NCBI GenBank assembly: GCA_021404685.1
Contig: QWHC01000004.1
Location: 38,697-102,696, forward strand
DNA length: 64,000 nucleotides
From: Chloroflexi bacterium CFX4
GTDB lineage: Bacteria; Chloroflexota; Anaerolineae; Aggregatilineales; UBA2796
Reading direction: 5' to 3'
This document shows positions 15,589 through 31,978 of this stretch, piece by piece. Within the stretch, counting starts at the first letter, position 1. The number at the start of each line of letters is the position of its first letter. Made by a program: the position numbers and the translations under genes. The notes beneath the pieces were generated by a model that was given only the letters and a program-made list of their open reading frames with translations, was not told the origin of the DNA and did no database searches.

Positions 15589-15852
15589 TTAGGACTGCTT
15601 GAGGCGGTTCTTTGCCTCTTTTGCAGAAATGGGTTTGAAAGGTGGCTCGCCTCCCGTAAACTCCAAATAGACATTGTTGCGGTCGTTACGGGCTGTGTTG
15701 TCACCTTGTGCGGTCACTACCTGACCCCCGTATCGTGCATCTAGTTTTACTTTGAAGGGCGTGTTAGCTGGAAATTTCCCAGCAACCACACCAGACACTA
15801 CATCGCTAATATTGAAGGCAGAGGTTTGAGACTGAACGACCGCAGCAGGCAC
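15589..15852 (-). CDS. Small unknown protein, last gene of the type III operon
   Basis: An 87-residue frame begins with GTG three bases after the stop of the Cas7-insertion gene, with TAAGGT just upstream. It therefore belongs to the CRISPR operon by position. The protein is basic at its C-terminus (KEAKNRLKQS), beta-prone in the middle (FKVKLDARYGGQVV) and has no zinc, HEPN or CARF motif. It is too short and too beta-rich for a typical Cas11 small subunit. I do not recognise a family. It may be a III-D accessory protein or an unrelated passenger. Confidence 0.6.
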   Translation of the reverse strand: MPAAVVQSQTSAFNISDVVSGVVAGKFPANTPFKVKLDARYGGQVVTAQGDNTARNDRNNVYLEFTGGEPPFKPISAKEAKNRLKQS

Positions 15853-15855: not shown

Positions 15856-17847
15856 TTACACGTCTTTTACCTCTGACGGACGCGGCAGCACAGGGCGATC
15901 TGTATATTCGTTATCGGGCTTCTCGATCTTCATGTACTCGAAGCGCCGTTCCTGCGGCGTGAGCATGACGCACAACTCACGGATGCGATCAATGGCGCGG
16001 AAATCGTGCTTGATACCTAGCTGGCTCACCACATATTCCTCAAAGGCTTTGATGTACTCGTCCGCTGTTTCTCGGCGCTCTGCGGTTGCCCAGCCGTCAC
16101 CCTCGAAAAGCTGTACGTAGCGTTTTTGACGGTCAATCAGGTGCAAGGTTGGCGTCAGTTTGACCATACCCATACCATATGGTTTGCCCATGCCCAGCTG
16201 ATGGCGATGCTCGGCGCTGCATGGTAAGTAAAGCGCCCATGCCAGCGCACCAAGTTCAACCGCGCTCAGGTTCTCAAAGCGAACAGTGAACTTGAAGGTC
16301 ACATTTTCTTTCACGGGCTTCATCCGCGTGTGCTGTGTATCGCTGCCCTGCTGAATTTTTTTGAGTGCTTCTAGGTCTTTCTGCTCAACATCGTTTATGG
16401 TTGTGCCGTGCTGCCGCCAGTAGAGCTTGTGTCCACGCAGGTTTGGACGGCGTGGCTTGGTGGTAGCATAGTGGTGCAGCTCAGCTTTAGAGCGGTAGGC
16501 TTCTTCTGGCTGTTCAAGGTAGTGTTGAAAAGTCGTGACCTTTGGTCCGCCTAGAATTTTCGGGATGAATTCGCGCTCATAGAAGTCTTTACTATCATCT
16601 GCGACAACAGCATCTGAAACGCTAACGCGAGAGGCATAAGCACGGCGCTTATCGCCTTGCTTAATATCTTTCGCCTCCTCCGCTTTGCCGATGTAGCCGA
16701 AGATTGCCTCTGCTATATCATAGTGATCGGAACGCTCTCGCAGTGCCTCAGGGATGAAATCACGCGGCGTGACAGCGCGGATCGTCCGTTTGCCGCCCTT
16801 TGTCTCGGTCAGGGTTGCGGGAATGCGGAAAAATGGTGCATGACCGAAGTAAATCACCATCTCACCTTCACCGGAGCGCGGCGGGATGTAAAAAATCGGT
16901 CGTCCAGCCACGAGGCAGCCAAATTCTTCGTCGAAGGGCTTTTCCTTCAGGAAAGGCGTCAAGCCATCGCGGTAGTCCTTAACAGCCTGTGGATCAATCT
17001 GCACGCGTGGCAGCCGAGCATCCGCTTCAAAGACGATCACAAAGTTCTTGCGCCCTGTTTGAACGCGTCCACGTGACTCGCCGCTTGACTCTGCCATGTT
17101 ACCGGTGCAGACCAGCACACCATCTCGCTGCTCACCTTGTCTCGGCGTGCGAACACTGGCGCGCAAGCCCGCACGTCCGCTTTGAAGCGATTCGGCAAGC
17201 ATGACATCAAGGTATTGCACACGGTAATCAGCGCTATTGAGGTGAATGATGCCCTGAAGCCGACTGACCGCTTCAGCCACATTACCTCTCTCGTCCAAAT
17301 CCCGCACTTTGGCGAATGTTTTACCTTGCTGCTTGGCAGCAGGGCGGATGAACCATTTATCGCCGTCGCACTCTAGGAAGCCTGCTTCTACATATCTGCC
17401 AAGCGGCCCAAGCGTGTTTTTGTAATTTTCACCGAGCGGATCATCTGACCTGGCAGCCACCGCACGGAAGAAGATTTTCGGCTTGTCACTGACTCGCCCC
17501 ATCTTCCCAAACGCCACGATCTCCACCAGACTCCGCAACATGCCGCGCAGCGAACTGCCCGGAATGACAGGCTTACCATTGCGCTGGAAGAAATCAGACT
17601 TGTTTTTGTGCTGCTCGGCTTTTGCTGCCTCAGCTTCGGTCAACATGCCGCGAATGTAGAGCGGCGTCTCGGTGGTGAGCGTGACGGTGAAATGTCCGCT
17701 GTGCTGATCCGCGTGGTAGCGGTCGTGATCGGGCAACGGCTCAGCAGGCACGACCTTATCCGGCAGCGGTACGAAGTTGTAGGGCGCGTGTGCCACGCCG
17801 CGCCCACCACCCTGTGATTGTCCGCCTTGTCTTCCCTTGTTACCCAT
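15856..17847 (-). CDS. TIGR03986-type RAMP protein (Cas7-insertion subunit of type III-Dv)
   Basis: The 663-residue protein has a Gly-rich disordered N-terminus (~1-20), then a RAMP fold with IRGMLTEAE and the crRNA-binding loop PVIPGSSLRGMLRSLVE (~93-109), which is diagnostic of the TIGR03986 family. A long insertion follows, and a Gly-rich RAMP loop occurs near the C-terminus (GMGKPYGMGMVKL). In the Synechocystis III-Dv complex the equivalent protein is the Cas7-insertion subunit, one of the backbone subunits able to cut target RNA. A strong ribosome-binding site (AAGGAGG) precedes the ATG, and the gene overlaps csx19 by 8 bases. Confidence 0.9.
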   Translation of the reverse strand: MGNKGRQGGQSQGGGRGVAHAPYNFVPLPDKVVPAEPLPDHDRYHADQHSGHFTVTLTTETPLYIRGMLTEAEAAKAEQHKNKSDFFQRNGKPVIPGSSLRGMLRSLVEIVAFGKMGRVSDKPKIFFRAVAARSDDPLGENYKNTLGPLGRYVEAGFLECDGDKWFIRPAAKQQGKTFAKVRDLDERGNVAEAVSRLQGIIHLNSADYRVQYLDVMLAESLQSGRAGLRASVRTPRQGEQRDGVLVCTGNMAESSGESRGRVQTGRKNFVIVFEADARLPRVQIDPQAVKDYRDGLTPFLKEKPFDEEFGCLVAGRPIFYIPPRSGEGEMVIYFGHAPFFRIPATLTETKGGKRTIRAVTPRDFIPEALRERSDHYDIAEAIFGYIGKAEEAKDIKQGDKRRAYASRVSVSDAVVADDSKDFYEREFIPKILGGPKVTTFQHYLEQPEEAYRSKAELHHYATTKPRRPNLRGHKLYWRQHGTTINDVEQKDLEALKKIQQGSDTQHTRMKPVKENVTFKFTVRFENLSAVELGALAWALYLPCSAEHRHQLGMGKPYGMGMVKLTPTLHLIDRQKRYVQLFEGDGWATAERRETADEYIKAFEEYVVSQLGIKHDFRAIDRIRELCVMLTPQERRFEYMKIEKPDNEYTDRPVLPRPSEVKDV

Positions 17848-18412
17848 TGCCCACCTCCTTCAAGCAAACCAAGCGGCTGAATGCCACATAGACAAAGCCA
17901 TTATCATCTGTTTTCAAGTAATGGCGCACAGTCAGGCGCAGCGGACGCCAATCAGGCTTAGCTTTCGTCACGTTGATCGGCACGTGATGCACCAAGCCTT
18001 GCGCGCCGTCGCTCATCTTGGTGAAGCCGTCACTATCAGACTTTTCGGCGTGATCGCCCCACAAAATCTGATCCTCATCGAAGTATTCGCAGCCTTCGCC
18101 CATGCCATCCTTGATAATGCGCGCATGGAAGTTTCCATCGCTATCCCGCCACACGAAGTATTCGGCATTTTCATTGAAGAGGCGCGCCTGCTGGAGCGTC
18201 TCCGTTTTTAATTCTTGTGGCTTGGGGATCAGTTCGTTGTTCACCACCTTGCCCCAGATCACACCATCATCGGCGTGCGCCAGTAAAAGTGCATCATTTC
18301 CCGCGCTCCCAACCTGCTCTTGCAGCCATTTCACAGGGTCTATAGGATCAACGGCTACGGGAGAAGGCTCTACACTGACAGAGGTGGTTGTTCCCTGAAT
18401 TGTGCGTTTCAT
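17840..18412 (-). CDS. csx19: Csx19 (TIGR03984), type III-D accessory subunit
   Basis: The 190-residue protein fits the TIGR03984/Csx19 family, which is restricted to type III-D loci: LLAHADDGVIWG, a central EYFDEDQILWGD block and a C-terminal LRLTVRHYLKTDDNGF-type segment. In the III-Dv complex Csx19 is a structural subunit bound to the effector. No catalytic motif is visible, as expected. It overlaps the double-Cas7 gene at its start (ATGA) and the TIGR03986 gene at its end, so translation is coupled. Presence of csx19 with csx10 and TIGR03986 is the main marker for calling this module III-D. Confidence 0.88.
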   Translation of the reverse strand: MKRTIQGTTTSVSVEPSPVAVDPIDPVKWLQEQVGSAGNDALLLAHADDGVIWGKVVNNELIPKPQELKTETLQQARLFNENAEYFVWRDSDGNFHARIIKDGMGEGCEYFDEDQILWGDHAEKSDSDGFTKMSDGAQGLVHHVPINVTKAKPDWRPLRLTVRHYLKTDDNGFVYVAFSRLVCLKEVGNG

Positions 18413-19821
18413 GCGCTCACCTCCTTGACGTAATCCTCTAACTGCTCACGGTCACCCGTGATGCTCAATTTGCCTTTTCCAGCATCTTCGACGCGCCACT
18501 GTTTGTTATTGTGCTTGATGGTCGCTTCCTTGCCCGCCAATCTGCCGCGCCCAACGCTCGATTCACCGCCCAGCGCCAAATCGCCCGTCCACAAGTCCTT
18601 CAAGATCAGCAGCAGCAAGCCAATCTCAGCATCGCTCGGATTCTTGATGCGGCATTTCAGCGTGACCGTGCCGCTGATGTGTGGCTGCTGGTTGAACAGT
18701 GCAGTATCCAGCGCGCCGCCGGTGAAGCGGTCAATGCTGACGCGGCTCTGTACCATGTCAAACTGACCACCGTCAATGGCATGTTCCTCAAAGGTGATGC
18801 GGCTGGCAGCCCGATCTTTTTGTGCTTTTTTATCACCATCTGTATCGCCAAAGGCGCCGAATAGCTTGTTGATAAAATCCCCTGCATCAGCGCGATTAAG
18901 CGTGTTGGCAATTTTCAGCGCACGCGCCCGAATGGCGCCGGCGAGGCTGGTGCCGCTCAGCACTGATTTGCCGTTTGAGCGCAAGTGTCCCATATCGGCA
19001 ACCGTGCTATCGGAACGGATGAGCAGCGTGCTGCGAAGGGTGAAGGTTGCCTCTAGCGTGAACACCTGGCGCGCATCTTTCAGCGGCTCAACGTCGAATG
19101 TTGCGAACAGGTCTTTGCTGGTATCACTTAGCGCGTCGCCGCGCAGCCATGCCATGAGGTCAGTCTCGTTATGCATGTCGTAAATACGGACCTGCCACTC
19201 GTCAACCTTCGCCCGACCGTAGCCGCGCCCTTTGCGCGCACCGAGCGTGATCTCGCCTGCTTGCAGCCCGTGCAGTGCCGTTGCCAGCAACTGAAGCAGT
19301 TGATTTTCATTATCGTTTTCGGTCAGGATCAGCTCAAAGCGCAGCGGAAAAGATGTGCCTGCCTGCCAGACCACGAAAGTGTAGAGCGCACCTTCAGAGG
19401 CTGTGCGCGATTTACCATCAATCCGCACGCCGTCGCGCAGTTCAACCGTGCCGTTGTCACCTAGTGCGTCGTCTACGATCAAGCGGCTCTGGGCACCTTC
19501 GGCATCTTCGCGCACGCCGCCAAAGAGCGCAGCAGCGTGGCTATTGCCTGATTGGGCGTGACCATAGCCCTTTTCAAGCGACCACACATAGCTACGCAGC
19601 GCGCCGGCGATTGAAGCGCCTGTTAGGAGTGGTTTGCCTTCGCGCTCATCCACAATGAGCGGCATGAGCGCGCCTGCTTCATCGCCGCTGCCGAAGTGCG
19701 CCGGCGTCTGCAAGACCAACGTGCCTTCCACCACCACGCGCTTGACGATCTTGCGCGACTTTTCGCCATGCCACATTGCTTGCGCTAATAAATTTTTGTC
19801 GTTTGGCAGTGCTTCACTCAT
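18409..19821 (-). CDS. Double Cas7 RAMP protein (Cas7-2x) of type III-Dv
   Basis: Two Cas7-like RAMP domains are fused in 470 residues. Domain 1 (~25-220) has the loop LLTGASIAGALRSYVW, and domain 2 (~250-440) has VLSGTSLAGAIRARAL; each ends with a Gly-rich stretch (GARKGRGYGRAK and GGESSVGRGRL). Cas7 subunits form the backbone along the crRNA and, where a key Asp is present, cut bound target RNA. At the position of that Asp, domain 2 keeps Asp (STVADMGHL) while domain 1 seems to have a hydrophobic residue (AGALMPLIV), so only domain 2 may cut. The arrangement matches Cas7-2x of the Synechocystis III-Dv complex. Confidence 0.88.
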   Translation of the reverse strand: MSEALPNDKNLLAQAMWHGEKSRKIVKRVVVEGTLVLQTPAHFGSGDEAGALMPLIVDEREGKPLLTGASIAGALRSYVWSLEKGYGHAQSGNSHAAALFGGVREDAEGAQSRLIVDDALGDNGTVELRDGVRIDGKSRTASEGALYTFVVWQAGTSFPLRFELILTENDNENQLLQLLATALHGLQAGEITLGARKGRGYGRAKVDEWQVRIYDMHNETDLMAWLRGDALSDTSKDLFATFDVEPLKDARQVFTLEATFTLRSTLLIRSDSTVADMGHLRSNGKSVLSGTSLAGAIRARALKIANTLNRADAGDFINKLFGAFGDTDGDKKAQKDRAASRITFEEHAIDGGQFDMVQSRVSIDRFTGGALDTALFNQQPHISGTVTLKCRIKNPSDAEIGLLLLILKDLWTGDLALGGESSVGRGRLAGKEATIKHNNKQWRVEDAGKGKLSITGDREQLEDYVKEVSA

Positions 19822-21322
19822 TGCGATCTTCCTTTCCTTTGCCTGCTTCTTTGGCGGCGCGTTCTAATACGGCGTCAATCAAGATGAGTGCGTTTTCATC
19901 TTTTTCAGCAGTCTCGGTCAGCCATGCTTTCATTGACTTGCCATTCACACGCGCCTTCTCAAAATGCTTATCGGCGCGCTTGCCTTTAATTTCCTCAAAA
20001 AACTTCTTAATTGCTTCGCTCAGTTGGCGATCATGCTTAGGCTTCAGGCGCTCACTGAGGACGATCTGCCGCAGACGGTTGATCTGGCTCTTGGGCATCG
20101 AGGATACACTCAGCCTCAGTCCTTTCGCATTGTCTAGCGCCTTCTGCTCAGTCTGTTGGCGCTCAATGCGCTTGTGCATCTCCTTCCAAAGTTCCTCGGA
20201 GGCGCCCAACGCGCTTTTGCCCGTATCGCGCACTGGTTTTTTCTTATCGCCATTCAGCACAGCCCGCTCAGGGCGTTGCCAGCCGATAGCGAACCGCCCA
20301 AAGCCTTCGTTGCGCCGCTCACCGATGCCGCGCCCATCAATGCTAAGTGCTGTGCCTGCCTTCAAAACCAGTACGCTGCCCATGCTGATCGTCGGCATTT
20401 GCGGCAGCGGCAGTCCCCATTTGCGGTTGAAGCCGCCGACGATGCCCTGCCCAAGATAGGCTTTCTCAACAGCATCAGGCGCAATGCCCAATGCACGGCA
20501 CAGCGATTCCAAATCAGCAGCGTGCTGACCATGTTCATTACGCAGGATGACATCGCTGAGCAAGGTGATCACAATCTTATCGCCGCTCGGTGACGCCTCG
20601 TCCGCCTCTTGCCAGGCATCGGAGCTTTCCACAGCGCTGATCGTCACACGCCCATAGCCGGCATTGCGTGCGCCGCCCATGACCACCGTCTTGTTTTCGC
20701 GCAGCAGACCTTCCATGTAAACAGCGTCGTCGTCGTTTTCACACAGTACCGCCGCCTCGAAGACTTGTCCGGCTGCCAGCGCGTTGTACTGATAGATGGT
20801 GCCGTTGTTTTCGCCGCGGCTGCGCCCGGCTTTGCGATCTCGCAGCGTATGCACGCTGATGGTGCGCTGTAAATCAGCAATTAGAACGCGCCCATCGCCA
20901 TTGAAGGCGACGAATGCGCCGCGCATTGACTTCGGCTTGTTCTGCTTCTTGTCTTTCTCGTCAGATTGATCCTCTGAATCACCCTCGCTTTTGAAGGCAT
21001 CATCTTTGATCTCGCGTTTCTCTGCGGGGGTCCCGTATTTTTTCTTCATCCAGGTGTGCGGCGCAGGCAGGCAGCGTTTACCACCTAACACGGGATAGCC
21101 GTTCAGGAAGCGCGTTTTAGGGCTGAAGAAACAACGGCGTGCTGCCTCTGCTGTAGCGTCTAACTCAACTAGCCCTTCCTTACGCAATGTCAAGCCGATC
21201 AAGACGCCGCGCAGCACACTGCCGGGAATGTAATCGTAAGAGACCGCGCTGTTCGGATCGCCCTCAAGGGCAGTTACCAAAAGCGGCTCTTCTAAAGTCA
21301 GGCGATAGGTGATGATCTTCAT
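19814..21322 (-). CDS. csx10: Csx10 RAMP protein with Cas11-like helical tail
   Basis: The 502-residue protein starts with a RAMP domain (ITYRLTLEEPLLVTALEG, then YIPGSVLRGVLIG) and a second beta-rich part (~225-350) with the Csx10/Cas5 pattern LGQGIVGGFNRKWGLPLPQ and GERRNEGFGRF. Residues ~365-502 are entirely helical and charged (SQINRLRQIVLSERLKPK onward). This tail is of the size and character of a Cas11 small subunit, and no separate Cas11 gene exists in the III-D module. In III-Dv the equivalent subunit is a Cas7-Cas5-Cas11 fusion. Csx10 should hold the crRNA 5' handle. Start and stop both overlap neighbouring genes. Confidence 0.88.
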   Translation of the reverse strand: MKIITYRLTLEEPLLVTALEGDPNSAVSYDYIPGSVLRGVLIGLTLRKEGLVELDATAEAARRCFFSPKTRFLNGYPVLGGKRCLPAPHTWMKKKYGTPAEKREIKDDAFKSEGDSEDQSDEKDKKQNKPKSMRGAFVAFNGDGRVLIADLQRTISVHTLRDRKAGRSRGENNGTIYQYNALAAGQVFEAAVLCENDDDAVYMEGLLRENKTVVMGGARNAGYGRVTISAVESSDAWQEADEASPSGDKIVITLLSDVILRNEHGQHAADLESLCRALGIAPDAVEKAYLGQGIVGGFNRKWGLPLPQMPTISMGSVLVLKAGTALSIDGRGIGERRNEGFGRFAIGWQRPERAVLNGDKKKPVRDTGKSALGASEELWKEMHKRIERQQTEQKALDNAKGLRLSVSSMPKSQINRLRQIVLSERLKPKHDRQLSEAIKKFFEEIKGKRADKHFEKARVNGKSMKAWLTETAEKDENALILIDAVLERAAKEAGKGKEDRNE

Positions 21323-21972
21323 GCGCGCACGCCTCCAATCCGTTTCTCAAACTTGTTGAGCAATGTATCCTGCGCTTCTGTGCCTTCCAGCCACACTTTC
21401 AAGCGCCCACGCCCACGATTGCGCCCACTGCCGCCGCGCTTGAGGTTTGCCGCACACGCCGCCAACAGTGCAAGGTGTGTTTCCTCTGGCTCTTTATCAA
21501 AGTGCAGCGGCGCACTGAACTCTAAGCCGCGCAGCACCACACGCGCCGAGCGCAGACTGCCCTCCTGCGGCACGCCAAACTTCGACTCATCCACAGCCGT
21601 CTGGCGGCGAATGCTGGTCAGCGACTCCAGAATTTGGGTTGGTGTGAAAGATTGCCCCTTAACGTATGCCACAAGGTCACTCGGCAGTTCGGCGCGCCCA
21701 ACGCGCATATGCGCTTGGCTATCCAAGTTGCTGCCACCTACGCCAAACAGCCATTTCGCCGCCGCTGTCAAATCTTCAGGATTGCCGAGCGCGTAGAGGA
21801 TGTCCGCGCAGGCTTCCACCAACAAGCCTTTCAGCGTGCGCCCGCGAATGATCGGCAAGCCCGTGCTGGCGTCATGCTCCACTTCCGCATCCACCAAGCC
21901 GACCACGCCATCGCCGCGCCCAAAAGTTGTATCGCTGAGCAGTTTGATCTTCAGCGTCAGTTCAGCTGTCAT
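21319..21972 (-). CDS. Csm3-like Cas7 RAMP subunit of the type III-D module
   Basis: A single-domain Cas7 protein of 217 residues: the N-terminal KIKLLSDTTFGRG strand and loop, the putative catalytic Asp in GLVDAEVEHD, the crRNA loop LPIIRGRTLKGLLVEA, and a C-terminal RGGSGRNRGRGRLKVW Gly/Arg-rich RAMP loop. Csm3-type subunits bind crRNA and cleave target RNA at 6-base steps with the conserved Asp. I use the ATG embedded in TGATG with the cas10 stop; a GTG one codon upstream is equally possible. Its own stop overlaps the csx10 start (ATGA). Confidence 0.88.
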   Translation of the reverse strand: MTAELTLKIKLLSDTTFGRGDGVVGLVDAEVEHDASTGLPIIRGRTLKGLLVEACADILYALGNPEDLTAAAKWLFGVGGSNLDSQAHMRVGRAELPSDLVAYVKGQSFTPTQILESLTSIRRQTAVDESKFGVPQEGSLRSARVVLRGLEFSAPLHFDKEPEETHLALLAACAANLKRGGSGRNRGRGRLKVWLEGTEAQDTLLNKFEKRIGGVRA

Positions 21973-23630
21973 CACTCACCTGCTTTCTGATCCGTCCGCA
22001 GCGGAATGTGAATATCCATCAGTTCTAGCGCATCGAAGTAGCCACACACGCCTTCGCACCAACCGTTGGCAAAACCATCAAGTTGCGGTAAGTCCTCGGC
22101 GCTACCTTTTTTTTCTATGTAAACATTGCGGAAACGCTCAACTTCCTGAGGACCTTGGCGCAGTGCATCGCGCAGCAGCTTCGCCTTGTTGCGCTTCTTT
22201 GCCCATACATCGTTTTGGAACGCGCTTGTGAGTTTCTCCACAACTGACCACCGATGGACACCTACAGTTGCTTCATCGCCCAGCGCCACTGGACGCAGGG
22301 TCAGGCTGCCCTGTGATACGGTGTATTCGCGCTTGCGCATTTCTTCGAGATCGCTATACAAGCCACCGGCAGTAAAGTACCAGTCCAGCGCACCGCCCTT
22401 AAAACCAGCGCTGCGGCGGAACTGTTTAGCCGCGCTGCACAGTTCTTCACTGAGCGCGTAGGCACGCGCAAACGGATAGCGCGATTTGACAATCGCCACG
22501 CCCGCGCACGCCGTGAGTTTATCTGAATACCCTAGCTTCTTTAGTTCTTCATCGTTTTGCGCTGCCTTTTCAAAGGCTTGCAGATATTCGACTGCCAGTG
22601 CCACGCCGATGCGTCCGTCGCAGACGAAGGTCGTATCATCGCCGCCGAAGATGATCGGGCGAATGGGCAGATTCATGTGATTCTGATCACTGAGCGTAAA
22701 TTTAAGATCAGGGACGGTACCAACACCGAGAATTTCCATGCCTTCAACAGTTTTTTCGATCAGCAGATCGATCACGGCTTTCATTGCCGCCAGTGAGATG
22801 CGCTTGGTTGCCTGAGAGAAAGCGCGTATGTTATCAATGTATTTGCAATCAGCACTTTCAGTGCCGATCTGCTTGATAATATCACCCATATCGTTGCCAT
22901 CGGCGTGAACGATAGCGATGTAGCTGCTTTCACCTCTGGAGCGTCCGAGATGATCCAGATCATCTGGGAAGGTGTAACCACTGTGTTCTTCGAGCAAGGA
23001 ATCCTCAAGTTTTTGCTTGGCGTGCTTGGCTGCACCGGCAATATCCTGCTTGGCAAGCACTTCGGCGGAAAGGTAGCGCCTATCATCGCCGATGTGGCGA
23101 CGGGCAAGTGCCGGCAAGCCTGTCTCTTGGCACATGGCAGTTACGCCGAGCCCGAGCAGCGGTGCATTGGCAGGCAACCTGCTCACCGCCGCTTTCATGC
23201 CGCGGCGTAGTTCACCAACTGCCTTGCCAAGCGGACATTTTTCGTTTGTGCTGTCCCATGTGATGCTGTGAACCTCCAAACGCAAGTTGGGTGCCTCGCA
23301 CAGCACTTTCTTCGAGAGCCGCTCTGTGAAGGCTTTGGCGTGATCCTTATTGCGGAACAAGATTGTGATGTTGCCGCCGCCAAAGTAGATTACTTCGGCG
23401 TCAAGCGTGCTGCCTTCATCAAAGATGTGACCTTTCGCAAACGGCTTCTTCGCCTTTGGATCGGTAATGTTGTGTGTTAATTTGGCATTTTTCAGCGCCT
23501 CAAACGCCCATGCCTCCGTTGCCTGCGCCACAAGGTAGGAAGCGCCAACGTTCTCCTTCAGGCGGTTGCTACCAAAAACGTAGCTTTGAATGCCGCCGCA
23601 TTCCACGGTGAGTAAGGTATATTCCGTCAC
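21972..23630 (-). CDS. cas10: Cas10 of the type III-D module, HD-less, GGDD intact
   Basis: The 552-residue protein opens directly with the first polymerase-like domain (VECGGIQSYVFGSNRLKEN) and has the degenerate palm YFGGGNITI at 82-90. The second palm carries HADGNDMGD (~242-250) and an intact GGDD at 329-332, the catalytic site that makes cyclic oligoadenylate from ATP when target RNA is bound. There is no N-terminal HD nuclease domain, so DNA cutting by Cas10 is not expected. The GTG start shares one base with the TAG stop of a leftover csx14 fragment, and the first ten bases lie inside a 111-bp repeat also found before cmr1. Confidence 0.9.
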   Translation of the reverse strand: MTEYTLLTVECGGIQSYVFGSNRLKENVGASYLVAQATEAWAFEALKNAKLTHNITDPKAKKPFAKGHIFDEGSTLDAEVIYFGGGNITILFRNKDHAKAFTERLSKKVLCEAPNLRLEVHSITWDSTNEKCPLGKAVGELRRGMKAAVSRLPANAPLLGLGVTAMCQETGLPALARRHIGDDRRYLSAEVLAKQDIAGAAKHAKQKLEDSLLEEHSGYTFPDDLDHLGRSRGESSYIAIVHADGNDMGDIIKQIGTESADCKYIDNIRAFSQATKRISLAAMKAVIDLLIEKTVEGMEILGVGTVPDLKFTLSDQNHMNLPIRPIIFGGDDTTFVCDGRIGVALAVEYLQAFEKAAQNDEELKKLGYSDKLTACAGVAIVKSRYPFARAYALSEELCSAAKQFRRSAGFKGGALDWYFTAGGLYSDLEEMRKREYTVSQGSLTLRPVALGDEATVGVHRWSVVEKLTSAFQNDVWAKKRNKAKLLRDALRQGPQEVERFRNVYIEKKGSAEDLPQLDGFANGWCEGVCGYFDALELMDIHIPLRTDQKAGE

Positions 23631-23731
23631 TATTCCCAGCCTTTCATGATCTTGATCAATGCCAAGCGCGGGTCACGGATTCGATCTCCAAAGTCGAACA
23701 CATCGCGCATCCGCTCGTAAATATCCTGCAA
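23621..23731 (-). repeat. 111-bp direct repeat, copy A (between cmr6 and III-D cas10)
   Basis: This segment matches 29568-29678 without gaps, with only two differences, both third-codon-position changes that keep the protein sequence (CGG/CGA Arg and GTG/GTA Val). It holds the last 31 codons and stop of csx14 and the first ten bases of the III-D cas10 gene. Together with copy B it brackets the whole cmr1-cmr6 cassette in the same orientation. Confidence 0.97.
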
Positions 23732-23780: not shown

Positions 23781-24677
23781 TTAGGATTCAGGTGCCGCTT
23801 CAAACACGCCGTAGCCTGCGGCAGTTTTGGCACCGACACCGAGCATATTCAGCGCCTCACGCAGCATATGGCGTGCATCTCCTAGATGTAATTCACCCGT
23901 TGTGCGCCGTTTGCTAATGGCGAAGGCAAAGCACACCCCTTCACTGACGGTGATATAACTAACAGGATTTGGACTGTCGCTATCATCAGGCGCTTGCTTG
24001 CCGCTGTCGCGGTAGTATTTAACGAAATGTGGCGTCATTACATCCACTGTGAAGAGTCGCCGGGGCGGTGCTTCTACCAGTACCGCATCGTGGAAGACAC
24101 ATGTGCCTGCTTCGCCCTGCGAGCCGAACATCTTGCGGTAGAGCGTGATGTGTTCTCTATCGAGTTTTGGTAACGCCTCAAAAACCTCTTCAGGTTCTGC
24201 TTCACTTAGTAGCTCATCAAATTTGTCGAGATTGAGCGACGTGCCTGATTGTTCAGCGAGCCAAAGCAAGAAGTAGTTGCGCGTCAAGCCTTTCAGGGCG
24301 CTGCCGGGAATGTAGGGCAACCCGGTAACACGGTGCAGTGTGATGCCGAATTCCAAGGCGCCCTTGCCGCCCAACCCAACCACCAAGCGCCCTTGCAGCG
24401 TTGCCTTGAAACGTGCCCCGCCTTCGGTCATGGCACGCCAGCGCTGGTAGGTGCTTTTGATGAGCGCCTCGTCAGGTTTGAAATTTTTGCAAAGATCGCA
24501 CAACCAGAAACCACGCTCTTTGCCGATAACTTTATCCCGATCATCGAGGCGATCCGTCTGCTCAATCACCTCTTGCGGCGCATAACGCCCAAGCTGCAAG
24601 CCAAAATTCTGGCACTTAGCGGCGTGTTGGTGAATCAGTTTTGCCGCGTCCTTCGGCACAAGATAGGTGTAGCTCAT
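23781..24677 (-). CDS. cmr6: Cmr6, type III-B RAMP subunit
   Basis: The 298-residue protein has the Cmr6 pattern: a ~90-residue N-terminal helical part with a CDLC pair, then the RAMP core with LVVGLGGKGALEFG and the loop PYIPGSALKGLTRNYFL, and a C-terminal GVGAKTAAGYGVF Gly-rich stretch typical of Cmr6. Cmr6 caps the backbone of the III-B (Cmr) complex near the crRNA 3' end, contacting Cmr1. Start overlaps the cmr5 stop by four bases (ATGA). Downstream lies a 150-base junction with the III-D module instead of the usual overlap, the largest gap in the operon. Confidence 0.92.
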   Translation of the reverse strand: MSYTYLVPKDAAKLIHQHAAKCQNFGLQLGRYAPQEVIEQTDRLDDRDKVIGKERGFWLCDLCKNFKPDEALIKSTYQRWRAMTEGGARFKATLQGRLVVGLGGKGALEFGITLHRVTGLPYIPGSALKGLTRNYFLLWLAEQSGTSLNLDKFDELLSEAEPEEVFEALPKLDREHITLYRKMFGSQGEAGTCVFHDAVLVEAPPRRLFTVDVMTPHFVKYYRDSGKQAPDDSDSPNPVSYITVSEGVCFAFAISKRRTTGELHLGDARHMLREALNMLGVGAKTAAGYGVFEAAPES

Positions 24678-25090
24678 CCGCCGTTATCCTCGCTCTTCCA
24701 GCCTTTTGCCTCTGCGAAACGCTTTAGCCAGTTGATGTAGGCGAGAACTTCGGCTGTGGTGCGCCGATAATCGGCAGTGGATTGCCGCAACAGCCATTCT
24801 ATCAGCTTGTTATCAGTAAGTTTGAACTCTTGCTTGATCCAATCGGCGATGTGCGCGTAAGCAAGCCCATGTTCACTCTGTTCATTGCCGCCTGCCTTTG
24901 CCAGCAGAAACGCCAACATCTGCCCAAGCCCATCGGTCTGGATCAACTGTGGCAAGCCGCGCACCAGGGAGCCGTATTTCTTCTGCGTCTTCTCTGGCAC
25001 ACTGCGATCAATATACTCAATGTTGTTCCAAGCGTGCTTGGCACGGCGCTGTTGCAGCGTCTGTTGTGCAGATTGTGTTTTGTCTGTCAT
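24674..25090 (-). CDS. cmr5: Cmr5, type III-B small subunit (Cas11 family)
   Basis: A 138-residue all-helical protein with the Cmr5 signature pattern: the N-terminal QQRRAKHAWNNIEYI, a middle SLVRGLPQLIQTDGLGQML and a C-terminal ALAYINWLKRFAEAKG-like helix (LAYINWLKRFAEA). Cmr5 forms the inner filament of the Cmr complex and helps separate the crRNA-target duplex. I use the ATG at 25088-25090, five bases after the cmr4 stop; the longer frame would overlap cmr4. Stop overlaps cmr6 start. Confidence 0.9.
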   Translation of the reverse strand: MTDKTQSAQQTLQQRRAKHAWNNIEYIDRSVPEKTQKKYGSLVRGLPQLIQTDGLGQMLAFLLAKAGGNEQSEHGLAYAHIADWIKQEFKLTDNKLIEWLLRQSTADYRRTTAEVLAYINWLKRFAEAKGWKSEDNGG

Positions 25091-25095
25091 GCTGA

Positions 25096-25998
25096 TTATG
25101 CTCCCGCCCAACGCAAGGCAACCATACCCGAACCTGTGGTTTCATCGCCACCCAACTGAATACGCTGCGGCACATTCTCAGCGTCGCGCAGCCAGTTCGC
25201 TACTTCCTCGTCACTGCCATTGCTGCCGTCCCGCGTGCTGCGCGCCAAGATTGCGCTCATCAGCAGGCAGTCTGAAGGCAACGCCTCTTGCGTCCAGAGC
25301 GCGCCTTGTGCCACAGTCTTTTTCACGCGCTCAAGGCGCACGCGTGTCACAATCTCGGTGCTGTTCTGCACAAAATCGCGGAAGGACTCATCGCTCAGCA
25401 CGATCAGGCTGTTTTGCACCTTCTTGCGCCAATACTCATATGCCTGATCAGTCGGGAAAGCATTTTCTGCCAGCCACTTAGCAATGGCATCTACGCTTTT
25501 ATCGGATGTGCATTCGAAGCTGAATTCTTCTAGCACTGCTCTGCCTGTAACTGATAGGGCGCTGCCACTAGTGACAAGCGCATTTTCGCCTACCACACTG
25601 CTGCTAAGCGACGGAAAGCCCTCCACATCACGGGCAACACGCGCCAGCACAGCCGCGCAAGTAGCGTAGGCGAACACACCGCTTAACGAACGGACAGGAA
25701 ACAGCACAATGCGCGCATCACCCACAGAGACCGCACCGGCAAACGAGACTTGCTTTTTTTGCTTTTTGCCGTTCTCATCAACTTCTTCTACCTCGTAGAT
25801 GTCACCAAAGACAGCCTTCAAAACGCTTTCGCCCTGCTTCGCCTGACTGCGTAGCGCGCCTTTGATGCCGCTGCCCTGCACAATCGGAAATTGGGTGGTG
25901 CGTTCGCGCTGAATGGGCAAATCAATTGCCGAAACTGTGCTGCCAACGCCGGCGTGCAAGGATGTTTCCGTATAGATAAAGAGTGGAATGCTCAACAT
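25096..25998 (-). CDS. cmr4: Cmr4, type III-B Cas7 backbone nuclease
   Basis: The 300-residue protein is a canonical Cmr4: TETSLHAGVGS followed by SAIDLPIQRE, where Asp26 sits at the same position as the catalytic Asp of Pyrococcus Cmr4, then the crRNA loop FPIVQGSGIKGALRSQ and, at the C-terminus, QLGGDETTGSGMV. Multiple Cmr4 copies line the crRNA and cut bound target RNA at 6-base intervals. The residue needed for cutting is present, so the III-B module looks RNase-competent. It lies 27 bases after cmr3, a normal intra-operon gap. Confidence 0.94.
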   Translation of the reverse strand: MLSIPLFIYTETSLHAGVGSTVSAIDLPIQRERTTQFPIVQGSGIKGALRSQAKQGESVLKAVFGDIYEVEEVDENGKKQKKQVSFAGAVSVGDARIVLFPVRSLSGVFAYATCAAVLARVARDVEGFPSLSSSVVGENALVTSGSALSVTGRAVLEEFSFECTSDKSVDAIAKWLAENAFPTDQAYEYWRKKVQNSLIVLSDESFRDFVQNSTEIVTRVRLERVKKTVAQGALWTQEALPSDCLLMSAILARSTRDGSNGSDEEVANWLRDAENVPQRIQLGGDETTGSGMVALRWAGA

Positions 25999-26025: not shown

Positions 26026-27087
26026 TTACCATGTGCCAGTTGCAAAGATGCCGAAGCCCATCGCGCCGTGATCAAGCGCGCCGTTGGGCGTCTCGGTGAA
26101 TGGAATGCCTCGCAGATCAACATCCTCAAAGAAGAAAACACTGCCAGCAGGCACATAATTTCGTAGCGGACGCGCTTGCTTACGTGCCATATCCCAGCCG
26201 CTGAACGGCTGCGGCTTGCCAATAACGTGCGAGATCAGCCTTCCGCCACCTACCCAAGGCGACCAATCGCCTGAGGCAGGCTGCCAACCATCGCTGAAGT
26301 AGGCAGGCGTTAGCAAGGTGACGCGCACGCGCTTGCCTGTATGCTTTTGCAACGACTGCGGTGGCTGTGCCAGCACTCGATAGCGTGCGCCACGCGACTC
26401 GCCGCCGATGTCCATCACGCCCTGCTCCGGAAAGAGCGTTTTGTTCAAGCCTGCCAGCAGCCCAAAGCCTTCCCGCAAACGGATGAATTCCGCAGTGTAG
26501 AAATGCCCTTGCTTATTGGCACGCCTTCCGTAATCGAGCGCCAAACCAACGCGCTCCTCGCGCTCAAAGATGCTCTCGGCACAGTGTAGATTGCCTAAGT
26601 TTAGATCGCCTGCTAGATAGCGCATAAACTGATCGTCGCTCAGCCAGCCCTCTGCCTCTTTGAAGCCTTCACCGCTGCCTTGCAAAGGACGCCATCCCTC
26701 AAATGGATTGTTGGTGTGCCAAGTGAGGCTATCAGCAGGTGTCAGCAGACGATACGCACGCGATTCCTTGTTGTAGACCAAATCGAGCGGTGCTGGAAAG
26801 AAGCGCTCCACACGCCCGTTGGCGTGTTTTGCTACAAACGGTGCCTGCGCCCGTAACCCGTTCAGATCGTTAGGCGTGCCGACTTCGGTCTGCACGGCGC
26901 CGCGCCCAAACTCAGCCCAGTCCGTGTCGGTCTGTTCAAGGTAGGCAGTCCGCAGCGCGCCTAACACAGTCTGTGGCGATGGCGGAAACAGGCTGCGCGC
27001 CACAAAGTTCTGCGCTGCCGTGAACGGCTTGTTATCGCGGAAGAACCACACATCAATCGGTTCGATGAAGAGCCATTGTTCGCTCAT
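26026..27087 (-). CDS. cmr3: Cmr3, type III-B Cas5-like subunit
   Basis: The 353-residue protein starts with the Cmr3 hallmark: IEPIDVWFFRDNKPFTAA and SLFPPSPQTVLGALRTAY. The C-terminal part carries GGGRLISHVIGKPQPFSGWD and ends with the Gly-rich MGFGIFATGTW stretch. Cmr3 binds the 5' repeat-derived handle of the crRNA and contacts Cmr2. Length is normal for the family. Start overlaps the cmr2 stop (ATGA). Confidence 0.93.
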   Translation of the reverse strand: MSEQWLFIEPIDVWFFRDNKPFTAAQNFVARSLFPPSPQTVLGALRTAYLEQTDTDWAEFGRGAVQTEVGTPNDLNGLRAQAPFVAKHANGRVERFFPAPLDLVYNKESRAYRLLTPADSLTWHTNNPFEGWRPLQGSGEGFKEAEGWLSDDQFMRYLAGDLNLGNLHCAESIFEREERVGLALDYGRRANKQGHFYTAEFIRLREGFGLLAGLNKTLFPEQGVMDIGGESRGARYRVLAQPPQSLQKHTGKRVRVTLLTPAYFSDGWQPASGDWSPWVGGGRLISHVIGKPQPFSGWDMARKQARPLRNYVPAGSVFFFEDVDLRGIPFTETPNGALDHGAMGFGIFATGTW

Positions 27088-28673
27088 GCTTGCCCTTCCT
27101 TTGCTCGATCAGTTGCCAAGAAGCGCGTCAGGATCGCCCAATTTGCCATATCTGCCCAAGTTGGGATGGCGGGCTTTTTAGGCTCACCTTTCTTATCAAG
27201 GACAGGTTCAACCAAACAGATCATCTCCTCCATAATCGGCTTGACTTCGCGTTCAAAGTCCACGCCTTCGGCAGTGCGCCGCTTGGCGACACGCAAAATC
27301 TCGGCTTGGCGCAGTTGAACCATATCTGCGGCGTGCAAATCGTGGTCAATTGCCTGTAACTCATAGCCTAGCTTGCTAGAGATTTTGCCCTGCTCAAAGA
27401 GTTCTTGCAGCCGTTGCAGGAACGGCACAACTTTCCAGTTGGCGCCGGCACTCCGCATCTGCCCTGTGCCGTGCGCTTCTGTGAAGACCACAGCATCACG
27501 CCCGTAGTTGTCTTTGGCAGTTTCTTCAGCCTCACGTGCCATCTCTAGCGCGTTATCCAACGGCAGATCGTGCGGTGTGATGGCAATGCCGGCGCTGGCT
27601 GTCAAGCCCGTCAGCGCATGGAATGCATTATAGAGTTCATAAGCGCACTTTAGAGCGTGCTTCAATGGCAAGAGCGCTAACACATCATCGCCACCGCTGT
27701 AGACCAATAAGCCGCCAGCGCCGCCATGCTTTTTGATAGTTTCTGGGACAATCTGAGTAGCAAACCGAGTGAGTTTAGCTGAGAAGGCGATGTGTTCTTC
27801 GCGGCTCTTCAACGTGCTTAGGTGCTTGCCCATCCTATCGCCGTCCATGTGCAGGACGGCGAGATAGCCGACAACCTCTTTACCGGAGTCTTTGCGACCG
27901 GTGCGGCGCTCGGTCTCTTCGGAGTCTTCCTTTTTATCAAAGGCAATGGCTGTCGTTGAGCGTATCTCAAACTTTTTATCTCCAAAGCATTTAGCGTGAT
28001 GCTGCCCTGCCAAACGCTTGATGATTGCCAGCGCACCGAGCCGCTCATTGGGACTCAGCACAATATCGCCCACCGCGTCAACCAGCCGCGTGCGCTGATT
28101 TTCAGTGAAAGGCAGCGCAGATTGTGCACCTGTTAGGGTGCATTTGTCACCGGCTGCCTCAATCTGTGGGAAGTGGCGCGCATATTTGCGCTGCGCCAAC
28201 GCGCCGCCAGCTTGCCCCAAAAGATCAGTGTGCTCGCTCTCATTATAAGGCAAGGCGACCCAGTAAAACTCCAGCCAATCGTATGCCTGTTGCTGAAAAA
28301 CTTGCAGCCACTTGCCATCGCCGAGCCTATCGCGCAGCCATTTCTCGACCTTTTCGGCAAATTGTATGCGCCATTGATCGCGGATCGCTTTTTCGACGCG
28401 TTCCGCAAGTGTGTAAGGCGCTTCATTGCTCAGGAAGGCGAACCGATGCGGTGTGCCTTTCAGGTCAGCTTCAGATAACTGGGTGCCTTGTTGCGGCGCA
28501 GGGAAGATCGGCTGAAAGCCTGCACTGCTTGTTGCTGCTTGGACGCCTGCTGCCGCGAGCGCGCTGAGCATACGGCTGCCGATGTACAAGTCTTGGGTGC
28601 GGCGCGCCTGTGCGATGAATGCCTGCACCGGACCGATGGTGAAGAGGAATAAATGTTTGGTCATGACGTTCAC
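27084..28673 (-). CDS. cmr2: Cmr2/Cas10 of the type III-B module, HD-less, GGDD intact
   Basis: The 529-residue protein begins with the Cmr2 D1 pattern (FTIGPVQAFIAQARRTQDLY), so the ~200-residue N-terminal HD nuclease domain of longer Cmr2 proteins is absent. The catalytic palm has HMDGDRMGKH (275-284) and SGGDDVLALLP with GGDD at 327-330, expected to make cyclic oligoadenylate on target binding. GTG at 28671-28673 overlaps the cmr1 stop (GTGA); an ATG three codons later (28664) is the alternative. It is clearly a different lineage from the III-D cas10 further down the operon, with little visible similarity outside the palm. Confidence 0.93.
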   Translation of the reverse strand: MNVMTKHLFLFTIGPVQAFIAQARRTQDLYIGSRMLSALAAAGVQAATSSAGFQPIFPAPQQGTQLSEADLKGTPHRFAFLSNEAPYTLAERVEKAIRDQWRIQFAEKVEKWLRDRLGDGKWLQVFQQQAYDWLEFYWVALPYNESEHTDLLGQAGGALAQRKYARHFPQIEAAGDKCTLTGAQSALPFTENQRTRLVDAVGDIVLSPNERLGALAIIKRLAGQHHAKCFGDKKFEIRSTTAIAFDKKEDSEETERRTGRKDSGKEVVGYLAVLHMDGDRMGKHLSTLKSREEHIAFSAKLTRFATQIVPETIKKHGGAGGLLVYSGGDDVLALLPLKHALKCAYELYNAFHALTGLTASAGIAITPHDLPLDNALEMAREAEETAKDNYGRDAVVFTEAHGTGQMRSAGANWKVVPFLQRLQELFEQGKISSKLGYELQAIDHDLHAADMVQLRQAEILRVAKRRTAEGVDFEREVKPIMEEMICLVEPVLDKKGEPKKPAIPTWADMANWAILTRFLATDRAKEGQA

Positions 28674-29569
28674 CAGCCTCCCCAGACTTTTTCGGCATTA
28701 AAGCGTTGTGCTGCCGCGTTCATAAAGTCGCGCACTGTGTTCCAATCAATTCTGCGATCAGGCTTGGCGCGCAGTGCAGTTAACACCGGATAGTAGCGCC
28801 CATTGATCCGGCGTAGTTGCGCGATTAGTGGTGAAGAGCGGCGCGGATTGGCGCTGCCGAACGAGTCCTGTTTTGGGCGAAACGTACTGTTACGCAGCAG
28901 ATCGCGGAACAGGCTCACCACAGCCTCTTCGTAGTCTTCATAACCGCGCTTGCCAACAATGATCCACGAATGTTTCGGATGCAGCGTCGGAAAATCTGGC
29001 ACGCCGACCGCAGTGCTGGCGTTGCAGCCTGCCGCTTCCAACGTTTGGCGGATGACGGTGATCAGCGCCTCAGGTGAGTCATAGTTGGGTGCGCCGCCTT
29101 TGCTCAGTTTGAACGCGCCAAACATGCGCCGTGAGCGCTTGCCGAGCCCGCCTAGCAACGCCCAGACATGCAGTGCGTGCAGTGCCTCTTGAGGCAGATC
29201 GCCATGTCGCGTTACTAACTCTAGCTTGACTTTCCATTCAGGCTGAATTGCCCAGGAAGGCGAGCGCTCATGTTCAGTGTTTTTGTGCGGCAGCATCTCG
29301 CTCTTGCGAGTGTAGTCTTCATTAACAGTGATTGGATAAACACGCACGGCAACTTTCGAGCCTTGATCTGTTGCGCCAAACACTTGGGACTCATGCTCCC
29401 AGAGTTCCTTCAAATCTGATGTTTTTGCGCCGATGATAGCACGCAGCCAGTAGCGCAGTTGCCCACGCACAGAGGCAGCACGCACTTCGAGGCTATCTTT
29501 GCTTTTAGGATCAGCGCCATTACTGAACATCGGGCTGATCACTTCCAACGAAAAGGTCTTTTTTTTCAT
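28670..29569 (-). CDS. cmr1: Cmr1, type III-B RAMP subunit
   Basis: The 299-residue protein has the Cmr1 start (FSLEVISPMFSNGADPKS) and the motif VRAASVRGQLRYWLRAIIG, plus LGGLGKRSRRMFGAFKL in the middle, which is characteristic of Cmr1. It is a single-copy version rather than the two-domain long form. Cmr1 sits at the crRNA 3' side of the complex. Its ATG follows the csx14 stop by seven bases; the GTGACGGA in between is identical to the start of the III-D cas10 gene and belongs to the 111-bp repeat. Confidence 0.92.
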   Translation of the reverse strand: MKKKTFSLEVISPMFSNGADPKSKDSLEVRAASVRGQLRYWLRAIIGAKTSDLKELWEHESQVFGATDQGSKVAVRVYPITVNEDYTRKSEMLPHKNTEHERSPSWAIQPEWKVKLELVTRHGDLPQEALHALHVWALLGGLGKRSRRMFGAFKLSKGGAPNYDSPEALITVIRQTLEAAGCNASTAVGVPDFPTLHPKHSWIIVGKRGYEDYEEAVVSLFRDLLRNSTFRPKQDSFGSANPRRSSPLIAQLRRINGRYYPVLTALRAKPDRRIDWNTVRDFMNAAAQRFNAEKVWGGW

Positions 29570-29678
29570 TCCGTCACTATTCCCAGCCTTTCATGATCTT
29601 GATCAATGCCAAGCGCGGGTCACGGATTCGATCTCCAAAGTCGAATACATCGCGCATTCGCTCGTAAATATCCTGCAA
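29568..29678 (-). repeat. 111-bp direct repeat, copy B (csx14 3' end / cmr1 start)
   Basis: This is the second copy of 23621-23731 (109 of 111 bases identical). Here it is the 3' end of the intact csx14 gene and its stop, plus ten bases reading GTGACGGAAT. In copy A those ten bases are the start of cas10; here they are out of frame with cmr1, whose ATG uses their last two bases. Confidence 0.97.
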
Positions 29679-30398
29679 GTGCCGCTGCACCGTCCGCTCC
29701 GAGAGCGCCAACAGATCGGCAATTTGCGTATCGCTGTAGTCATCATGCAAAGCAAGCACGTTTGCCACGCGCTTTTGGGCATCCGTCAGGCGCGCCAGCA
29801 GCATTTCTTTGCGATTCAAGCGCTTTTTCAAATGCTCAATGATGTCTTGGCGCGTCAGCGACTCTAAGGTGGTCGGTGCGAAGCGCGAAGGCAGGAATGG
29901 CATCGGCGTCACCTGCACACGCGCCCGATCCGCAGACGGCACATGCCACAGGTTATGCTCCATGATGTCCTTCGGCGTCAGCACTGTCCAGACGGCGTCG
30001 TGTTCATCCAGCAGCAGCGAGGCAGCGTAAACAGCGTAGACGCTCATTGCCTTGCGTCCGCCGGCAACCATCAGATGCACGCTGTAACCCTGCTGTTTGT
30101 AGTAGAGCAGGGCATCCAGCACGCCGTAGAAATATGCCTCTGCTGCGTTTTCGTCCTCAATATCCAGCAGTGGCGAGTCGTCCAGCGCACGGATTTCGCG
30201 TAGTTCGAGCGGCAGCTCGGCATAGGCGCGCCTGATCTCGCTTTGCAGCGCACGCAGCGGTTCGGCAATGCCGGACTGGAGGGGATCCGTGTGCAGCAAG
30301 CCGATCCGTTGGTAGGGATACTTGATGCGTAGGTTGTCGAAGGCAACGGTCACTGCTTGTGGGCGCTGCCCAACAGTGGCAAGGTAGATGTGGTGCAT
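29577..30398 (-). CDS. Csx14/NE0113-type CARF protein with C-terminal LuxR-like HTH
   Basis: The protein (273 residues from the ATG at 30396-30398; another ATG lies 6 codons upstream) starts with YLATVGQRPQAVTVAFDNL and has VAGGRKAMSVYAVYAASLLL around 115, the two conserved segments of the NE0113 (Csx14) CARF-like family that binds cyclic oligoadenylate. Residues ~197-246 form a LuxR-type helix-turn-helix (SDTQIADLLALSERTVQRHL). The combination suggests a transcription regulator controlled by the second messenger, or a ring nuclease with a DNA-binding tail. It lies between the APE2256 gene and cmr1. Its last 31 codons are duplicated at 23621-23731. Confidence 0.85.
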   Translation of the reverse strand: MHHIYLATVGQRPQAVTVAFDNLRIKYPYQRIGLLHTDPLQSGIAEPLRALQSEIRRAYAELPLELREIRALDDSPLLDIEDENAAEAYFYGVLDALLYYKQQGYSVHLMVAGGRKAMSVYAVYAASLLLDEHDAVWTVLTPKDIMEHNLWHVPSADRARVQVTPMPFLPSRFAPTTLESLTRQDIIEHLKKRLNRKEMLLARLTDAQKRVANVLALHDDYSDTQIADLLALSERTVQRHLQDIYERMRDVFDFGDRIRDPRLALIKIMKGWE

Positions 30399-30402
30399 GG
30401 GT

Positions 30403-31533
30403 TTAGTCGCTTCCATAGAATTGATTGAGCTGATCGGCAGCCCAAGCCAATTGATCTAGTGTTGCCGCATTGGTTAAGATTTCAAAGCGCGCACCGAACC
30501 GATTCCGATCTTGATAGGTACCAATGAGCTTGCCCTGATAGACGTAAAAAGTTGTGCCTCGGATTGTCCGCTGCCTATCATAAGGCAGACTGTGTGCCGT
30601 CTTGATCCATGGCACTTCAGCGCAAACTCTCTGGACAAACTCTTTGAAACCATCTGGATAGTGATCATCGCGGAAAGAAGGCGGACGCTTTTCAGACGGC
30701 GCAACGGGCGAGAGGGTTAAATCCCTCGGAAAGCGCAGACGGAAGCCTGTCAGGTAAATCTGACCGACTGCACCTAGCCCAACATGCACTTCACCATCAA
30801 TCTCAACTTCTTCGAGCAAAATACGCAGCTTATCGTCTACATCTTGTGTTTCGGCAAGGGTAACGGTCGCACCACGCTCAAAGAAAGCAAGCACATCGGC
30901 ATTCTCGCCAAGCACCTGATAATCAAAGGCGATAGGCATTGGTGGAATGTTGATAATCTCTGAGAAGCGCTCAAAGCGATATAGCACAGGAATTTCTAGC
31001 GCTTGCCCAAAGACAACGGCAATTGCAATCTGCGCCTTATAGCCACCGGTTGCATCAATGAGGATAGTTTCTCTTTGGTAGCGCTGAACAAGATCGCCGA
31101 TTTGTCGGACAAGGTTGCGGAGCCCGTCCGTTTTGAAGCGCGCTGGTTGTGCATCTTGCAATCCTTCTATGATGTGATATTCAACCGTCTCAAGATCGGG
31201 CAGATCACGCCCGACGCGCTCAGTAAAGTAGCTCTCTAGCAGGTCGCCGACGTTTTGTCCGTCGTCCGTGTTAGAAACAAGAAAGTGGATATGCCGTAGT
31301 TCAATGCGCCCACGTTTGACAAGTTCGGCAACTGAATTAATTTCTGCACCGCAAATACGTGCTGATGGCTCAACCTGTGCCAAGACACGCGCTAGCTGTC
31401 CCCAGTTTTTCTCACCGAGAAATCTCTGTAGTTCAGCATGAACTTCTTGGGAGACACCACTGTCAGCGCGATATTCATTTTTAATATTTGTAATAACACT
31501 CGTTCCTACAGTGCTAATCAAACGATTCTGCAT
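30403..31533 (-). CDS. APE2256-type CARF protein with unrecognised C-terminal domain
   Basis: I start at the ATG at 31531-31533 (376 residues), eight bases after csx15; the longer frame overlaps csx15 without reason. The CARF domain (1-~205) has STVGTSVITNI at 7-17 and DATGGYKAQIAI at 160-171, diagnostic of the APE2256 family that binds cyclic tetra-adenylate. A linker or winged-helix-like part follows (~210-255), then a basic ~115-residue domain (262-376). That C-terminal domain has no HEPN RxxxxH, no PD-(D/E)XK and no HD motif. It is either a new effector domain, a diverged toxin such as a RelE-like interferase, or a sensor only. It is the best candidate effector in the locus. Confidence 0.85.
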   Translation of the reverse strand: MQNRLISTVGTSVITNIKNEYRADSGVSQEVHAELQRFLGEKNWGQLARVLAQVEPSARICGAEINSVAELVKRGRIELRHIHFLVSNTDDGQNVGDLLESYFTERVGRDLPDLETVEYHIIEGLQDAQPARFKTDGLRNLVRQIGDLVQRYQRETILIDATGGYKAQIAIAVVFGQALEIPVLYRFERFSEIINIPPMPIAFDYQVLGENADVLAFFERGATVTLAETQDVDDKLRILLEEVEIDGEVHVGLGAVGQIYLTGFRLRFPRDLTLSPVAPSEKRPPSFRDDHYPDGFKEFVQRVCAEVPWIKTAHSLPYDRQRTIRGTTFYVYQGKLIGTYQDRNRFGARFEILTNAATLDQLAWAADQLNQFYGSD

Positions 31534-31540: not shown

Positions 31541-31921
31541 CTATCGCCTTTCCCGTGCGGTGTGCCGCACATTGTCCAAATTAATAATCTCTGCCACTTC
31601 AAAAGCGCTAACCAACGCATTCGCAACCGGACGCAAACGCACAATCGTTGGGAAGCGTCCGCTGCGCCCATGCAGTTCCGCCAGCAAAATCGCTGTTATG
31701 AAATTTAGGGAAGGTGGCACGATCAGCCACGCTTCGGTCTGCCACTGCTCCGCCGTGATGCCTAAGCTATCCATCAGGGCAACCACCTGTGGCACGAAAG
31801 GTTGGTCTACTTCAAACTGAACGCGAATATTGCGTATACCGTCTATGGTACCGCCCAACTGCCCCTCAATTTGTGCAACCTGCTCAGAGGTGAGCGGATG
31901 TGAAAAATTGATAATTTGCAT
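31541..31921 (-). CDS. csx15: Csx15 family protein, first gene of the type III operon
   Basis: The 126-residue protein matches the Csx15 pattern: IINFSHPLTSEQVAQIE at the start, VQFEVDQPFVPQ, a Trp-Gln motif (TAEQWQTEAW), LIVPPSLNFITAILLAEL and a final HGRSGRFPTIVRLRPV segment. Csx15 occurs only with type III CRISPR loci. Recent work, as I recall it, links the family to binding or degrading cyclic oligoadenylate, so a switch-off role is likely; no metal-site motif is visible. I start at the ATG at 31919-31921, five bases after GAAGG; a GTG two codons upstream is the alternative. A putative promoter lies ~58 bases upstream. Confidence 0.85.
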   Translation of the reverse strand: MQIINFSHPLTSEQVAQIEGQLGGTIDGIRNIRVQFEVDQPFVPQVVALMDSLGITAEQWQTEAWLIVPPSLNFITAILLAELHGRSGRFPTIVRLRPVANALVSAFEVAEIINLDNVRHTARERR

Positions 31922-31978
31922 GAACACCTTCTACAATGAGTTTCGTTTGCGTTTTCGATCAATTTCAAAAGTACCTCT

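Follow-up and report, generated by a model that had tools for sequence, protein, structure and literature searches.

Introduction

CARF effectors determine how type III CRISPR systems protect cells. The closest described relative of the protein analyzed here is Cami1 of A. vinosum (CARF7--CARF_RelE_like; PADLOC model PDLC01939; PDB 8phb and 8phj), a dimeric, cA4-activated CARF-RelE protein reported to cut mRNA at the A site of the ribosome (PMC11229360, citing Mogila 2023). Ring nuclease activity is also present in Cami1 (PMC12409355), and its gene lies in a type III-B neighborhood, directly preceding cmr1. Another CARF7-RelE protein, SyCsm6 (Sll7062; PDLC01934) of Synechocystis, which has a type III-D neighborhood, broke down cA4 in vitro but left RNA intact, and its K167A variant served as the control presumed to be inactive (PMC9676260). 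Members of the Csx15 family either act as sponges for cA4 or cleave it slowly as ring nucleases (PMC13148439), and in ptuXYZ the C-terminus of PtuZ is a BECR (RelE/YoeB-like) toxin domain (PMC11980606).

Here we describe a CARF7 protein of Chloroflexi bacterium CFX4 in which another C-terminal domain, referred to as X, takes the place that RelE has in Cami1. The architecture is already known as the PADLOC family CARF7--CARF_DUF2103 (PDLC01930), a catalogue entry only, from which the protein shows no structural difference; no functional study of this family was found in the literature searched, nor any paper that pairs DUF2103 with CRISPR or CARF. The gap is a widespread CARF7 family with an uncharacterized domain at the effector position: a large, phylum-crossing clade that joins a Cami1-related sensor to a candidate executing domain with no assigned function or fold.

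The CARF7-X gene lies in a compact type III operon

The features of the operon are collected in Table 1, in which positions refer to the window, that is, the whole stretch of 64,000 nucleotides that was analyzed. The CARF7-X gene is a real ORF encoding 376 aa plus a stop codon, as the sequence-only reading of this DNA had proposed; its ATG at 31533 is the start used by relatives, and an alternative longer in-frame ORF (to 31671) runs into csx15. The spacing between csx15 and the CARF7-X gene is 7 nt, and the latter overlaps by 14 nt with the following CARF-HTH gene, after which come cmr1 to cmr6 with a GGDD Cas10 and then a type III-D module with a second one, the motif being kept in both Cas10 proteins. 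The CARF3/NE0113-HTH protein, encoded between the effector gene and cmr1, is a probable cOA-responsive regulator of the operon; its LuxR-like HTH (GerE) was matched with an E value of 1.3e-4, below the curated cut-off. Neither the window nor the three flanking stretches that were read showed a CRISPR array.

Table 1. Features of the type III operon and its surroundings in the window.
Feature	Coordinates	Strand	Evidence or remarks
CARF7/APE2256 protein, 376 aa	30403..31533	-	CARF + winged helix + C-terminal domain X
Domain X, residues 268-376, candidate executing domain	30406..30732	-	
Csx15 (family of ring nucleases or cA4 sponges), opening the operon	31541..31927	-	NF040560 E 6e-45
CARF3/NE0113 protein with C-terminal HTH	29577..30416	-	PF09623 E 6e-20, PDLC01851 E 5.5e-51
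Cmr1 (type III-B)	28670..29569	-	family matches
Cas10/Cmr2 with GGDD cyclase motif	27084..28673	-	motif + family matches
Cmr3	26026..27087	-	family matches
RAMP protein, Cmr4 by position	25096..25998	-	PF03787; orthologues in Cmr loci of relatives
Cmr5 + Cmr6, by position and size	23781..25111	-	orthologues in Cmr loci of relatives
Cas10d (type III-D) with GGDD motif	21972..23630	-	motif + family matches
Type III-D module: Cas7-like proteins, Csx10/Cas5, Csx19	15856..21975	-	family matches

The statement of the sequence-only reading that the locus holds no other nuclease effector agrees with the lack of any Csx1 profile match over the 121 kb around the gene. Searches of the whole genome (94.75% complete) with CARF-HEPN and CARF-PD-(D/E)XK models found no other gene of either class, apart from a weak self match to the CARF-HEPN models.

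The sensor half is homologous to Cami1

A match to PF09651 (Cas_APE2256) over residues 61-198 (E 5.8e-31) established the APE2256-type CARF. In an AlphaFold model of the 376-aa protein, built on an alignment of 77 relatives (mean pLDDT 93.6), the CARF domain is predicted at residues 1-205, followed by a winged helix of helices and a beta hairpin at about 205-267 and by a linker. The profile of the 77 relatives matched Cami1 (8phb) at residues 6-264 with an E value of 1.7e-26, followed by the ring nucleases Sis0811 and SSO1393, and Cami1 was also the top structural match (Foldseek E 1.8e-14; VIA Z 20.9). VIA aligned 281 residues with apo Cami1 at 9.2 A, the alignment extending to model residue 361, and 240 residues with ribosome-bound Cami1 at 5.2 A, with residue 270 the last one aligned. 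From these profile and fold matches we conclude that the CARF and winged helix are homologous to those of Cami1 and that the sensor half is Cami1-like; the C-terminal half is not recognizably so.

The Crn1-type ring nucleases Sis0811 and SSO1393 share the CARF fold (Z 17-19, residues 1-269) and the catalytic Ser and Lys positions, but are stand-alone off-switches that do not carry domain X. The ligand-site motifs GTS12 and TGGYK166 are conserved across CARF7-X relatives: Ser12 shares an alignment column with Ser12 of Sis0811, and the lysine of the TGG-Y/F-K motif, invariant in 77 of 77 relatives, is the counterpart of Lys167 in SyCsm6. Judged from these residues, the CARF domain probably degrades cA4 slowly through Ser12 and Lys166, so that the effector would be self-limiting together with Csx15. 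SyCsm6 was considered as a characterized member of the CARF7-X family and rejected: it has in common with the family a CARF7 sensor with the ring-nuclease lysine, but it matches another CARF7 model (CARF_RelE), has a RelE-like C-terminus and belongs to another clade.

Domain X shows no recognizable nuclease motif or solved fold

Domain X is predicted by AlphaFold as an αββββα unit at about residues 296-373, with helices at 296-306 and 359-373 flanking strands at 310-315, 328-332, 335-341 and 347-354. Modeled in isolation, it gave identical elements (pLDDT 87.5). The description of residues 262-376 as a basic domain holds, though they are only mildly so (pI 9.2; 16 K/R, 13 D/E).

Profile searches found no match to a HEPN, PD-(D/E)XK, HD or toxin family in the C-terminal part, as had been supposed. 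Pfam searches with X of the 77 members returned nothing convincing and no RelE-family match in any of them, and no Pfam family, DUF2103 included, was matched by X. The model of X is alpha-beta4-alpha and not a helical bundle as in Csx1/Csm6. CARF4--CARF_PDDEXK was not matched among the PADLOC families listed, and no PD-(D/E)XK fold stood among the listed matches of isolated X. Comparison of isolated X with the PDB by Foldseek and VIA-align gave nothing above Z 3.5, neither a RelE-type match nor one to a non-catalytic dimerization fold; the top rows, which comprised longin, roadblock, profilin and PH-like folds, were taken as generic alpha/beta meanders. A profile search of PDB sequences with X returned at best an FHA domain (Spk1; 43 residues, E 0.009), rejected as a chance match. 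Against viral models Foldseek found no match with an E value under 0.07, and X was not found in phage, plasmid and IMG/VR searches. No match was obtained with hhalign between X and the C-termini of CARF-RelE and NsnC proteins, a comparison of little power, since the known RelE groups mostly failed to match each other too.

The CARF domain is much more conserved than X. Within the subgroup of the CFX4 protein, strong conservation is seen at His291, Pro293, Lys302 (Arg in the CFX4 protein), Tyr318, Gln321, Phe329, Gly338, Arg349 and Asn370, and the main subgroups taken together retain only Ser/Thr315, an aromatic residue at 318, Phe329, Gly338, Arg/Lys349 and Leu369, with the cyanobacterial subgroup deviating even from several of these. 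Alignment of the subgroups revealed no clear catalytic residue set conserved family-wide and almost no strictly conserved polar residues, a pattern not usually expected of a catalytic site, which counts against an effector role of X.

The term "unrecognised", which the sequence-only reading had applied to the domain, fits X itself but not the architecture: the PADLOC model PDLC01930 aligns through columns 1-352/353 with residues 1-373 (E 4.2e-100) and is matched by 77 of the 77 aligned relatives.

CARF7-X proteins form one clade across 14 phyla

A scan of 84,980 species genomes yielded 164 relatives, of which 80 were kept; one biochemical and structural study could therefore resolve the function at many loci. 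In a tree of the CARF and winged helix, 78 members form a single clade (support 100/97), apart from the clades of Cami1 and SyCsm6, which covers 14 phyla by record labels. In one Chloroflexota CARF7 protein with X (L144, from the same stretch as L158), the CARF groups with a CARF-RelE protein, with long branches; this might be a separate acquisition of X.

Type III genes resembling those of the window were found at 42 or more of the 80 loci, a lower bound with short contigs counted. Loci of Anaerolineae (L015-L019) repeat the order csx15, CARF7-X, CARF-HTH in either direction, some having Cmr genes and others lacking them. The Csx1 profile had matches in 18 of 93 related loci, with an adjacent csx1 in Caldilineaceae, so that X need not be the sole executioner there. 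In Arthrospira sp. PCC 9108 (L094:6846-9098), a CARF7-RelE gene stands in tandem directly upstream of the CARF7-X gene.

X appears to recur in NsnC

A second context of X is provided by the PADLOC NsnC model PDLC03895 (281 columns). Its columns 174-281 match X of 14-16 cyanobacterial CARF members, with E values down to 3e-38, and its columns 1-173 match another protein set, encoded after an AAA_15/DUF3696 ATPase; on plasmids the genes run DUF262 - DUF3696 - NsnC. This layout is that of ptuXYZ, and we infer that NsnC corresponds to PtuZ. As the third gene product of these DUF262 - DUF3696 ATPase modules, NsnC/PtuZ differs from the CARF7-X protein in having no CARF and an unrelated N-terminal domain, and only this one model ends in X, whereas other models and proteins have different C-termini. 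In other NsnC proteins the same N-terminal domain is followed by C-terminal domains of RelE-like or different type, some resembling HigB/Gp49 toxins (L114; PF05973 E 0.054, below the cut-off). Because the NsnC C-termini vary in this manner, X appears to belong to a set of interchangeable C-terminal domains that occupy a toxin position. Searches of several hundred cyanobacterial genomes plus others recovered separate halves only and no natural NsnC protein with both, so the NsnC link of X rests on the PADLOC model. That X seems to turn up again where an unrelated defense family has its toxin makes it a good target for study.

Several alternative C-terminal domains appear to exist in NsnC. Five NsnC-like proteins (L137-L139, L141, L142) have a third, unrelated C-terminal type (motif YGFHKETDQFYVF...YPTYHGFPI). 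A candidate for a protein consisting of X alone (L189) was rejected as a CARF gene with an internal deletion.

A proposed role of X as the executing part of a Cami1-like effector

We favor, at a probability of roughly 0.55, the reading in which X is the executing part of a Cami1-like effector, its fold being left uncommitted. The earlier proposal that X may be the executing part and possibly a new effector type is partly supported, X being the sole effector candidate found in the locus and apparently recurring in NsnC; the architecture is already recorded in PADLOC, and X may or may not be catalytic or a new effector type. The CARF7-X protein is a variant of CARF effectors, Cami1-like, and not a categorically new system.

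For its ligand, dimerization, activation, toxicity and target we infer the following. Upon target recognition, the Cas10 proteins of the III-B and III-D modules would make cOA, probably cA4, a signal suggested by the action of Csx15 on cA4. Binding of cOA by a CARF dimer would expose or activate X through the winged-helix linker, and activated X would do the damage, most likely to RNA or the translation machinery, since X occupies a RelE-type position in both CARF7 and NsnC/PtuZ proteins. The CARF, through its ring-nuclease residues, and Csx15 would then switch the response off. The lack of in vitro RNase activity in SyCsm6 (PMC9676260) counts against an effector role. Going further, we consider it possible, but only tentatively so, that X represents a toxin domain class of its own, without RelE ancestry, which has been exchanged as a module between type III CARF and NsnABC/ptuXYZ ATPase defense, acts on translation or some other core target and is spread over at least 14 phyla.

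Rather unlikely, in our judgment, is that X is a strongly diverged RelE/BECR domain, in which case the protein would be a ribosome-dependent mRNase of the Cami1 type. The position of X behind the same CARF and winged helix that RelE follows in Cami1 would be explained, as would the extension of the apo Cami1 alignment to residue 361 and the end-to-end coverage of cyanobacterial members by the general CARF_RelE model of PADLOC, and the predicted helix and four-stranded meander fit the general BECR description. Such an origin is, however, at odds with the 0 of 77 members matched by a RelE family of Pfam and with the separation of the X clade from those of Cami1 and SyCsm6, and the fold comparison of isolated X (best Z 3.5) and the profile comparison with CARF-RelE C-termini returned no RelE match either, the former being of low power and the latter failing for known RelE groups as well.

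It is unlikely that the protein serves chiefly to switch the response off, as a ring nuclease in which X is a non-catalytic part for stabilization, ribosome binding or partner binding: the ring-nuclease residues kept in a CARF far more conserved than X, the nearby Csx1 and upstream CARF7-RelE genes of some loci and the activities of SyCsm6 would accord with it, but the locus would then have a regulator and, counting Csx15, two candidate off-switches without an effector. A ring nuclease without a known effector was met in only 31 loci of a published survey (PMC12409355). Moreover, X is retained over 14 phyla in proteins about 376 aa long, beyond the needs of a stand-alone off-switch, and the same type of domain occurs where an NsnC model has its toxin.

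Other features of the window

At positions 10771-12219 the window encodes a 482-aa protein that matches PADLOC SWIM_XIII over residues 67-474 (E 4e-144); we take the name of this model to denote a retron type XIII accessory protein. The gene adjoins one for a protein of 1160 aa (12222-15704) that matched no family, and no reverse transcriptase was found among the ORFs read.

A 111-nt direct repeat, 98% identical, is present at positions 23621-23731 and 29568-29678. It corresponds to the 3' end of the CARF-HTH gene, including the stop codon, copied just ahead of the start of the III-D cas10. This repeat suggests that the CARF-HTH gene formerly stood before the III-D cas10, the Cmr block now lying between the two copies.
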